From: Leptogranulimonas caecicola
Lineage (GTDB): Bacteria > Actinomycetota > Coriobacteriia > Coriobacteriales > Atopobiaceae
Assembly: GCF_023168405.1 (NCBI RefSeq)
Contig: NZ_AP025285.1
Coordinates: 1,114,001 to 1,178,000 of the forward strand
Direction of reading: 5' to 3'
Length of the DNA stretch: 64,000 nucleotides
Shown here: in pieces, positions 12,541 through 16,932 of the stretch
How positions within the stretch are numbered: the first letter of the stretch is position 1
Layout: every line of letters begins with the position of its first letter
Notes under the pieces: model-generated
Database searches by the model: none
What the model saw: only the letters and a program-made list of their open reading frames with translations
What the model was told of the DNA's origin: nothing
Program-made: the position numbers and the translations under genes

Positions 12541-12616
12541 TGGTGGAGATAAGGGGGATCGAACCCCTGACCTCATGACTGCCAGTCATGCGCTCTCCCA
12601 GCTGAGCTATATCCCC
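12541..12616 (-). tRNA. tRNA-Ala (GGC), copy 1
   Basis: Acceptor GGGGATA/TATCTCC, anticodon stem CATGA/TCATG around loop CTGGCAG (anticodon GGC), T arm AGGGGTTCGATCCCC and encoded CCA. All 76 bases are identical to the plus-strand copy at 15888-15963. A TATAGT at 12641-12636 on the minus strand is a likely -10 element. Confidence 0.96.
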
Positions 12617-13442: not shown

Positions 13443-15642
13443 CTATTGATCGCTATGGCATTTCTTGAGGATTCCCGCCGTGGCACCCAAGGTCATGCCT
13501 AATGCAAGCAGCAGGACAGCCAACGGCTGTAGGGTGCCATCGTCGCCAATCTCCGGCAAGACGATCTTGTTGGTGGCTGCAGCCGCAGCGCCAACCGCAT
13601 ACCTGTCATCCACATTATCATGGCCAGCCTCTTGGGCCGCGACGCTCTCATGCGGGACTTCTTTTATATCCTCCTTGTCGTCGGTGACCTTGTCGTCCGC
13701 CTGACCATGGTCGCCAGCCGACGCGCGAAGCACCTGCACGCTTATTATGACTTCGAGAGGCATATTGTCTGGGTTGGCGACTTCCTCAGGCAGGGATACG
13801 GTGCCCCTCACCTTAAATGTCTGCTCTGCCGGGCTTGCAGGGTCATAAGTGCCCGCTGCCAGCTCGTCCAAGTCCCACGTGACTGCAGGACGCTTGCCCT
13901 GCGCCTCGGTGGCAATGTCGACGGTGGAAGGGAGCCCGAGTGCCGCGGCGGTCTTTTCTGTACCGCTTGCCACGCCAACAATATCCTCAGGCGTTGCGAC
14001 GCCAAGGAGCTTTGCCCGATGGGTGCAGTAGAGGCTTTCAACCCTCATGGCGCCGTCGGCATCGAGCACTCCTCTTTTCTGCACCTTCGTTGTTTACCGA
14101 TACCTTTGTAGAAACGGTCAGGATGTATCCTTCCTTAGGAACCATCGTCATATGCGCCTTGTAACGCCAGGGGTAATAGCGGGCATCCCCACTGACTGGA
14201 TTGTCCTCGCTGTCGGTCCAATAGAGCCTGACGCCCTCGACGCCCTCGGTTTCGCAGGCAGCCTTCGTGTCAAAGGGCAGCCCGCCAAAAGGCAAGGTTA
14301 TCGTGACATCCACCTTGTCTATGGGAATGGCGCCAGCAGCCGTAATGGTGATGGCCCCGGTAACCGCGGCCTTGTGGATCGTAAGCGTGCCCGTCACTGG
14401 ATCATAGGAATAGGTGCTGTCTCCAGCCGCAAGCGTCTTGCCTCCCACAGAGACGGCGATTTTTTTGCGGCAGCAGGCGGCCGTTGGTCGCAGTCAGCCT
14501 AGTGGAATACTCCGTGCCTTGCGTGATGTAGCCAACCCCATTGTCGGCCGTGAGGTAGCTGAGATTTTTGGTGACCTTGCAGTGGATGGCACCGTTATCG
14601 GCGACAACGCCATCGTTCACGACAATGCCGTTGTCGTACATGGTGCCGTTGTTGGTCAGGGTCACACCTTCTGCCACAGTGAGGCGCGTGTTTTCTGGGA
14701 TGGTCAGGGTCTTTCCACTCTCGACTGTAAGATTCTTCGTCAGAACTTGGTCTTTGTAGACGGTACCGGAAGCGCCCAAGAAGATGATGCCGCTCCACTG
14801 GTTCCTCTTCGACTGGTCCCTGATGGCGCCGACAAAGATGACGGCACTCCCATCCTCTCCTGTGGAGAAGCTGCCATGATTGTATGAGGTGCCACCGGCA
14901 CCGATGGACGGGGCGCTTCCGCCTCCGGTTGCGGTCACGGTGCCGCCACAGATGAGGTTATCGGCACCGTTGCCGCCATAGGGTCATCTGTTATAGCTTT
15001 GGTCCCAACCGCCACCGCCTATGCCAGTCCAATTCTCTCGCCCTCCAACGGCGGTAACTGTCCCGCCATAGATCTTGACGATACCCCCATGGCTGCAAGA
15101 GGCACTGCCGCCGATCCCTGCGCCTTCCTTTCCGCCCTGGGCGTAAACGGTCCCTCCATAGATATTGATGGTTCCACCGTTCTTGTAGCGCTCCGCACCG
15201 ATGCCAGGCGCAACATTGCCTGATGACCTTGCGGGAGTGAGCCGGTTCCTGCGCTTTGGCAGTAAACCGAGAAGGCGTTGCCCTCGTTCACGCAAATGTT
15301 CCTGGTGGTCAACTGCGCCCCGTCACATAGGATGAGCTTCACATCGCCCTCTACGGTTACCGTATCGGTGATGTTGACTGGGCCTTCCACCACATACCAG
15401 CCATCCTTCCAGGTGGAGGCCGCTGTCGTGTCGCCGACAACCGTATAAGGTTCCGTCAAGAAGGCCTGCTCATGGTTCTCATCGATATAGGAAGCACTCG
15501 CCTGGGCCGACAGCGCGACCTTCTGATACGAGGCGCTGTTGCCGTTGACACTCTCCACCAAAGCCTGCGCGCCAGTCCCCATTAGCACGATCCCTAGACA
15601 CAGGACGGAACAGGCAAGAGAGCACAGCTGTCTTCTTCTCAT
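13443..15642 (-). pseudogene. decayed cell-wall surface protein (beta-helix repeats, sortase signal)
   Basis: The pieces lie in order on one strand. First is a signal peptide (CSLACSVLCLGIVLMGTGAQA), then a strand-rich domain, then GGT-x-x-I-x-GGTV and GxGIGG repeats typical of right-handed beta-helix or carbohydrate-binding surface proteins. Ig-like strands follow, then LPEIGDD, a hydrophobic helix and a KKCHSDQ tail, i.e. a sortase-type anchor with I in place of T of LPxTG. At least four lesions interrupt it. These are a frameshift near 15225, an in-frame TGA at 14986-14984, an indel at the seven-T run 14460-14466, and an indel near 14070-14080. The intact product would be about 730 residues. 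Confidence 0.75.
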
Positions 15643-15839
15643 AGAAGCCCCCGTATATCAACGTTCTTTCATTTTTTTATAGCACCTTAGTTTTCCTAGA
15701 TTGACAGTCGCGAGGCCGCCTCTTGACTGTGCGGCCATGCACACACCTATCGCGTCTCATCCTCCCGGGCAGCCTGGTATCAAGGAGACGGGCGAGCGAG
15801 AAGTTCTTATCCTCGATCTAAACAAATGCAGATTCGGGT

Positions 15840-15887: not shown

Positions 15888-15963
15888 GGGGATATAGCTC
15901 AGCTGGGAGAGCGCATGACTGGCAGTCATGAGGTCAGGGGTTCGATCCCCCTTATCTCCACCA
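15888..15963 (+). tRNA. tRNA-Ala (GGC), copy 2
   Basis: Identical over 76 bases including CCA to the minus-strand copy at 12541-12616. The identity extends about 13 bases upstream (CGCACCAACCCAC). It forms an inverted repeat with copy 1 and decodes GCC/GCU. Confidence 0.96.
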
Positions 15964-16007: not shown

Positions 16008-16083
16008 GGGCCTATAGCACAGCGGTCAGTGCAGAGGACTCATAATCCTTTGGTCGTAGGTTCGAATCCTACTGGGCCCACCA
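16008..16083 (+). tRNA. tRNA-Ile2 (CAT, lysidine-type)
   Basis: Acceptor GGGCCTA/TGGGCCC, anticodon loop CTCATAA (anticodon CAT), T arm GTAGGTTCGAATCCTAC and encoded CCA. The arm CTCATAATCC-TTGGTCG resembles the AUA-reading isoleucine tRNA modified by TilS rather than elongator or initiator Met, but a Met identity cannot be excluded from sequence alone. Confidence 0.85.
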
Positions 16084-16093
16084 CAAAAAAGAT

Positions 16094-16129
16094 GCCCCTA
16101 GCTGCGCTCATAGCAGCTAGGGGCTTTTT
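16094..16129 (+). terminator. strong intrinsic terminator after tRNA-Ile2
   Basis: Perfect 12-bp stem GCCCCTAGCTGC / GCAGCTAGGGGC with a 7-base loop and five T. Confidence 0.85.
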
Positions 16130-16208
16130 CTCCAACAAGATCCCGTTTCTTGGTTCGGGGTCTCACTCCTCACATCGGGCTTACAGGACAAAAAGCATGC
16201 TGTGAATT

Positions 16209-16240
16209 GGGGCGTTGACGCAGGTCGACGTCCCTTTTTT
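16209..16240 (+). terminator. second hairpin with T-run (GTTGACGCAGGTC family)
   Basis: The CGTTGAC-GCAG-GTCGACG stem, extended by G/C pairs, is followed by six T. No gene lies between it and the previous terminator. The apical part recurs at 16778-16804, so the pair may be a small repeated element. Confidence 0.5.
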
Positions 16241-16366
16241 GGGTGCTTAAATCCAGAAGGCTCATTTACACACGGGGCCCGGACAGAGGGCGTGCTATCC
16301 GAGGCCCTATAACCCCGGCCAAAGGCTGCAGAATCGAGTCGTTACATCCAGGATTTGCAGGGCTCG

Positions 16367-16435
16367 ATGAAAAGGGCGGTCTGCGGGACCTGCGGGGCCA
16401 AGATGCAGAAGAGCGACAACACTCGCGCCTACTAA
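16367..16435 (+). pseudogene. truncated zinc-ribbon peptide, possible transposase remnant
   Basis: A 22-codon frame (MKRAVCGTCGAKMQKSDNTR-A-Y) with a CxxC pair like the N-terminal zinc ribbon of some IS transposases (for example IS1249-type proteins), cut off where the 13-bp repeat begins. Its last codons and stop are made by the repeat itself. The similarity is short and the assignment weak. Confidence 0.3.
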
Positions 16436-16591
16436 GTACATTTCCTCCGGCATGTGCCTACTAAGTACAATTGAATATGAAACCAAATCTGTGAGCTTGG
16501 GTGATGTAATACTAAAATATAATATGACGCAGATTTTGGACAAAATCGGCCTACTAAGTACTTAGTAGGCGCGAAATGGTACTTAGTAGGC
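16427..16591. repeat. GCCTACTAAGTAC inverted-repeat array around AT-rich core
   Basis: Five exact copies of the 13-mer are present: forward at 16427-16439, 16456-16468 and 16549-16561, reverse at 16558-16570 and 16579-16591. The third and fourth overlap to form a 22-bp perfect palindrome (16549-16570). Between the second and third copies lies an 80-bp AT-rich core with TATAAT at 16518-16523. The outer copies also form terminal inverted repeats of a 165-bp unit. The array could be an operator cluster or a miniature mobile element. No gene is attached. Confidence 0.7.
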
Positions 16592-16684
16592 ATGGAGCGG
16601 CGCCCAGCCTCAGCCCCATCCGCCCTGTGCCCCCATCTTGCAGGCAGGCCTGCTTTTGACCTTCCAGAATTTACCCGGGGTTTT

Positions 16685-16716
16685 GCGGTTTGAAAACAGT
16701 CCTGCTTTCAAACCGC
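16685..16716. repeat. perfect 11-bp hairpin in gene-free patch
   Basis: GCGGTTTGAAA / TTTCAAACCGC around a 10-base loop. On the minus strand it lies within a short open frame (16610-16810) ending in a basic peptide. I do not regard that frame as an established gene. It could be a terminator or a palindromic intergenic repeat. Confidence 0.45.
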
Positions 16717-16777
16717 CCCCCTTCTGAGTGCAAAGAGCACTTGTAAACAATGAAGGTGAATTTGGCCTACAGATTAA

Positions 16778-16807
16778 GGGGTGTTGACGCAGGTCAACCC
16801 CCCTTAT
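16778..16807. terminator. hairpin of the GTTGACGCAGGTC family, near proS end
   Basis: GTTGAC-GCAG-GTCAAC flanked by GGGG/CCCC gives a strong stem. It shares its core with the hairpin at 16209-16240, 570 bases away. It is possibly the terminator for the minus-strand proS operon, although the T-run is weak in both directions. Confidence 0.45.
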
Positions 16808-16932
16808 CACAGCACGCTGTCTGTTCTAAAAGCCTCATAGCGCGATCGAGAAGCCCCTACCCTTGGCAGCAGGAGTTTCTCGGTAGCAAGATAGTTAAAA
16901 GGCTGCGCCGGCAGGCCTGCTATCTCGAAGGT

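Follow-up and report, generated by a model that had tools for sequence, protein, structure and literature searches.

The window, a 64,000-nucleotide stretch of the Leptogranulimonas caecicola genome, contains a compact repeat array in the intergenic region behind a tRNA-Met gene and its terminator-like hairpin (Table 1). Farther upstream, consecutive ORFs on the minus strand (13443-15661) lie in different frames, with a signal peptide at one end and a membrane anchor at the other, and look like a broken surface-protein gene. Two tRNA-Ala (ggc) genes, at 12541-12616 and 15888-15963, flank this broken gene on opposite strands, 3.3 kb apart.

A window scan finds five exact copies of the 13-mer GCCTACTAAGTAC. 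The initial annotation had described five copies within 16427-16591 with the orientations given in Table 1, a 22-bp palindrome, GCCTACTAAGTACTTAGTAGGC, formed where two of them overlap, spacings of 29 bp on the left and 21 bp on the right, and a 13-mer restricted to the array within the window. All of this agrees with the scan, which recovered the exact positions and no further exact copy in the window; the remaining window matches to GCCTACTAAGTAC have two to three mismatches and occur at chance frequency. Two readings had been offered for the array, namely a cooperative operator or a 165-bp miniature element with the 13-mers as its terminal inverted repeats (TIRs).

Table 1. Features of the array and of the element that carries it (window coordinates)
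Feature	Position	Strand	Remark
Terminator-like hairpin behind tRNA-Met gene (16008-16083), just upstream of insertion	16089..16129	+	
Complete type A miniature transposable element of 657 bp, without conserved ORF	16178..16834	+	Limits defined by homology: 10 copies in own genome, 9 in sister genome
Left terminal inverted repeat GGCTTACAGGACAAAAAGCATGCTGTGA	16178..16205	+	Pattern in 4/396 genomes
Left subterminal GTTGAC...GTCGAC palindromic repeat	16209..16236	+	Repeat family D2
13-mer copy 1	16427..16439	+	Identical in 14/19 element copies
13-mer copy 2	16456..16468	+	Identical in 19/19 element copies
AT-rich core	16469..16548	+	Also without 13-mers at G000:147915 and G001:C11:75587
22-bp palindrome: overlapping 13-mer copies 3 (+, from 16549) and 4 (-, from 16558)	16549..16570	.	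Mean column conservation 0.992
13-mer copy 5	16579..16591	-	Identical in 11/15 copies
ACCCGGGGTTTT, reverse complement of AAAACCCCGGGT; one base from double-hairpin linker AAAACCCCAGGT	16673..16684	-	
Second hairpin, formed by different arms, GCGGTTTGAAAACAG / CTGCTTTCAAACCGC	16685..16716	.	Inverted-repeat pair I4
Right subterminal GTTGAC...GTCAAC palindromic repeat	16778..16805	+	Repeat family D2
Right terminal inverted repeat, minus strand = GGCTTTTAGAACAGACAGCGTGCTGTGA	16807..16834	-	Pairs with left end

Comparison of the genome (G000, 2.0 Mb) with that of its nearest relative, a sister species in the Atopobiaceae (G001), places the array inside a much larger unit. An element-wide search of both genomes produced 19 substantial copies, about ten per genome, several of which match over the full length, 1-657. 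The array is retained in 18 of the 19, and the remaining copy (L038) is interrupted within it. The proposal of a mobile element was therefore right in kind, because many copies lie at unrelated loci, but wrong in its limits. Homology extends out to 16178 and 16834, so the 13-mers are internal rather than element ends, and a 165-bp element was rejected. The actual ends are 28-bp TIRs (GGCTTAYAGGACARAWAGCRTGCTGTGA) that begin with GGCTTAYAGGACA, with a GTTGAC/GTCAAC palindrome inside each end. No long ORF was found within the element.

Target duplications of 8 bp are perfect at two copies (CTGTTCTA at L033 and GAAGGTGC at L040) and imperfect at others, with 7/8 matching at L034 and a degenerate 5/8 at the window copy. 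The sister genome (G001:C4) has an empty, uninterrupted site corresponding to L034. Four insertions, including that in the window, are common to both species, and the other insertions are not. Dispersed copies, TIRs, 8-bp duplications and an empty site together identify a miniature transposable element, as these are the properties of a MITE, and its mobility is well supported. The TIR pattern is essentially confined to the two genomes of the genus: four of 396 genomes are positive, two of these with one weak match each. The TIR matches in G031 and G124 were discounted as single ends with no transposase recognised nearby. ISL3, the transposase family searched for a parent element, was likewise rejected as the source of the parent transposase, since a search of G000 found no ISL3 transposase gene and ISL3 TIRs in the family begin with GGCTCTTC, unlike the GGCTTAYAGGACA of the element. 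A phage, plasmid or viral origin was also rejected; DNA comparison gave no match, and no homologs of the nuclease described below were found in viral contigs or phages.

Terminator-like hairpins directly precede the left end of the element in L033, L034, L046 and L057, and that of a relic in L077, which suggests a possible target preference for sites behind such hairpins. Left-end relics that lack the array are present at G000:C1:498111-498167 and 150413-150473, the second near one of the 13-mer double hairpins described below. The AT-rich core of the array is also found without 13-mers, at G000:147915-148002 and G001:C11:75587-75676, where it has a palindrome of its own (GTAGTTTTGGGGC...GCCCCAAAACTAC). 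These loci are a possible ancestor of the array core.

The 13-mers are the most conserved sequence of the element, above the TIRs. In an alignment of the 19 copies, among which the window copy has a mean identity of 84% to the others, the palindrome is identical in 15 of 18 copies and 13-mer copy 2 is invariant. The palindrome is the top-conserved 22-bp stretch of the element (0.992), compared with about 0.89-0.91 for the TIRs and 0.85-0.89 for the flanks.

The initial annotation had left its readings to a search of the genome and its relatives, with absence of the 13-mer from every other locus counting against them. That search finds dispersed copies in both species, with 50 exact 12-mers in G000 and 47 in G001. 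The 12-mer clusters of G000 make up 16 loci, 15 of them by exact matches and one by near-matches (one mismatch allowed). Ten of these loci, including that in the window, are inside the ~657-bp element, and the other six (62.7k, 64.5k, 150.2k, 151.8k, 744k and 1568k) are double hairpins of ~115 bp; five such loci are present in G001. When one genome per species was scanned for about 85,000 species, the sole match to the exact 22-mer was in Olsenella sp. KGMB02461, and matches to a 300-bp query were confined to the two congeneric genomes among the 60 relatives compared.

Each double hairpin consists of a long-looped hairpin, the conserved linker AAAACCCCAGGT and a short hairpin, with the 13-mer or close variants as arms. 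Pairing is preserved in 91.5% of cells, and some of the changes affect both sides, but many arm positions are invariant in sequence. This invariance suggests that the sequence is conserved beyond the needs of folding, as would be expected for protein binding. The double hairpins apparently occupy corresponding sites in both species and so give no sign of mobility of their own, an observation that we count against the interpretation preferred below.

A Vsr/DUF559-like nuclease gene (G000:C1:63004-64158, equivalent to L031:3302-4459), 1.07 Mb from the window array, has the 62.7k hairpin on one side and the 64.5k hairpin on the other. The gene, an ORF of 336-385 aa, is conserved in G001, where the counterparts of the two hairpins enclose it likewise. 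With conservation above that of the TIRs and the same 13-mer on both sides of one Vsr-like nuclease gene, the 13-mers behave as binding sites might. The nuclease family has seven members in G000. Among 15 aligned members, the active-site-like residues D245, E256, H263 and R274 are invariant, within the pattern SPxE...D...EY...H...R. Among solved structures the closest match, a weak one (E=0.016), is 3r3p, whose deposited description is a mobile intron protein; this structure is the catalytic domain of I-Bth0305I, a Vsr-like homing endonuclease. DUF559 scores above the cut-off in the homolog from G150 and gives a weak match or none in the members from G000, and several G000 and G001 members have weak matches to the MTES_1575 restriction enzyme. 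A defence-system library gave weak single-member matches only. On the basis of the similarity to the catalytic domain and the conserved acidic and His residues, the product of the flanked gene is probably a nuclease.

Several other members of the family are flanked by repeats with different arms. When 140 genomes were searched with a covariance model for which the 13-mer double hairpins were the sole input, the model identified, within the genus, double hairpins with CTACGTGAATTCACGTAG arms (G000:85722 and 136273). The closest paralog of the bracketed nuclease (at 1621725, 54% identical) adjoins an array built of exactly these CTACGTGAATTCACGTAG arms. Another paralog (L190, gene 1807-2868) has seven copies of GCTCACTGA divided between its two sides. 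Flank arrays were not found at two of the seven G000 genes (L191 and L192), and only a weak one was found at L193. Two distant Collinsella homologs also gave no flank array. A 1.8-kb circular Collinsella record with a distant nuclease homolog was considered as an excised circle of the 657-bp element and rejected, because it lacks an array and contains an ORF resembling a transposase. In G001, two near-identical units, each containing the palindrome CGCTGGGGTTTTACAAAACCCCAGCG, enclose a nuclease paralog (L199, gene 1595-2623) and resemble the ends of a small element.

The association between arrays and nuclease genes is also observed statistically. A 9-mer repeated three or more times within 350-bp flanks occurs at five of the seven G000 nuclease genes versus two of 48 control genes from the window (p=0.0001), a control set that is small and includes coding flanks. 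Without the gene that prompted the analysis, p=0.0007. Dinucleotide shuffles agree for four of the nuclease genes and are marginal for a fifth.

Beyond the genus, the model finds AAGTACATCACAG arrays at several loci of G070 (genus g15), two of which bracket a homologous nuclease gene, and AATTACTCACAAC hairpins in G150 (genus g9), where a homologous nuclease gene adjoins. A third weak match, in G116, has no adjacent nuclease gene. The matches in other genera score weakly by themselves (E-values 1.9e-4 to 0.009); what supports them is the genes next to them, not the scores. At four of the G070 loci (L179, L180, L181 and L182), the AAGTACATCACAG arms are ordered as direct copies, a hairpin and reverse copies, as in the window array. 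In a G001 copy of the element, the counterpart of the second hairpin is also matched by the model (G001:C10:307639).

We favor, at a probability of roughly one-half, the interpretation that the window array is a cognate binding-site array of the Vsr/DUF559-like nuclease family, carried inside a ~657-bp non-autonomous TIR element. Each nuclease would recognise its own arm sequence, binding palindromes and spaced half-sites in dimeric or multimeric form, and the arm sequences would evolve along with their nuclease. Judging from these sequence patterns, the nuclease may bind, cut and mobilise the arrays. By analogy with what is proposed for the REPINs of RAYTs, dispersed arrays might be substrates or parasites of the nuclease. 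The TIR element would then carry one such array, which stays under constraint there. Counted against this interpretation is the fact that the terminal repeats of the element suffice for its spread, making the nuclease unnecessary.

The most serious competing explanation is that the element is an ordinary MITE whose interior holds a cluster of repeats, and that its 13-mer is shared with the nuclease-gene hairpins through hitch-hiking or pile-up in gene-poor spots and is functionally meaningless. TIRs, duplications and an empty site are enough to explain the spread, the elements occupy intergenic, terminator-rich places, and some nuclease genes lack arrays. Moreover, the BrickBuilt MITE of Porphyromonas gingivalis has an internal 23-bp tandem array (PMC4596501) and, like the element described here, is short, non-coding and intergenic, with inverted ends, about 10-20 copies and a narrow host range. 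In the element described here the array copies are spaced and form a palindrome instead of a tandem, and the motif recurs around a distant nuclease gene. Against the ordinary-MITE explanation, conservation of the array exceeds that of the TIRs, the arms differ between paralogs, the arm of one paralog was predicted by an independent hairpin search, and the flank test is significant. On balance, we regard the ordinary-MITE explanation as unlikely, while still deserving serious weight.

An operator array is considerably less probable. Here the 13-mers would be bound cooperatively by a regulator, host-encoded or mobile, that might be the nuclease acting as its own repressor, and transcription would be controlled in this way. 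The palindrome and the multiple spaced half-sites are compatible with this idea, and AbiEi-type antitoxins act comparably, binding several inverted repeats within the promoter of their own genes (PMC7319586). However, the repeats described here are dispersed and occur to either side of the gene, no AbiEi or toxin domain was detected in the nuclease-family proteins, and arrays occur both downstream and upstream of nuclease genes. The operator as originally put forward is unsupported, because every exact genomic copy lies in dispersed repeats, not upstream of one gene family, and because the TATAAT noted in the AT-rich core, although present in the window copy, is missing from the 18 other aligned copies; a promoter reading of this hexamer was rejected for the same reason. 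Very improbable is a role at the RNA or structural level, for instance in terminating transcription in both directions or in stabilising mRNA, with the arms conserved for pairing, given that the strong folding of the double hairpins and some compensatory changes are set against arms more invariant than pairing requires, conserved direct copies that do not pair, and an Rfam search at the gathering score that returned tRNAs only and no matching family.

The best-known bacterial REP-like palindromes are tied to one enzyme family, the RAYTs. A different repeat cluster can lie beside each of several single-copy RAYT genes in one genome (PMC3116915). The repeats described here resemble the REP/REPIN-RAYT arrangement in that dispersed palindromic doublets are accompanied by a separate cluster beside a cognate gene. 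Unlike in that arrangement, the gene beside the repeats encodes a Vsr/DUF559-like protein, not a Y1 (HUH) tyrosine transposase, the copy number is in the tens, the arms are 12-13 bp, and there are extra direct copies and a AAAACCCCAGGT linker. Because the enzyme differs, these repeats do not belong to the REPIN/RAYT class, though they may work like one. The nuclease resembles EDxHD/Vsr-like homing endonucleases such as I-Bth0305I, which binds a long target in dimeric form (PMC3943268), by its weak catalytic-region profile match to 3r3p. Unlike I-Bth0305I, the genes here are free-standing and chromosomal, with no intron or intein seen, and repeats flank them.

We found no description of this combination of nuclease and repeat in the open-access literature, which suggests, but does not prove, that the pairing is a previously undescribed, REP-like one. 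We tentatively propose a self-contained class of repeat systems in which Vsr-like nucleases, each with its own arms, would bind and mobilise dispersed hairpin arrays built of those same arms, or else be exploited by them. Such a class would parallel RAYTs and REPINs from a different enzyme; arm specificity would diverge with the protein, and capture by MITEs would spread the arrays. If this is true, gene-specific arrays beside Vsr-like nucleases would be a second, independent solution besides that of the RAYTs, and uncharacterised DUF559-type proteins would gain a testable DNA target, with the recognition sequence predicted from the flank of each gene.
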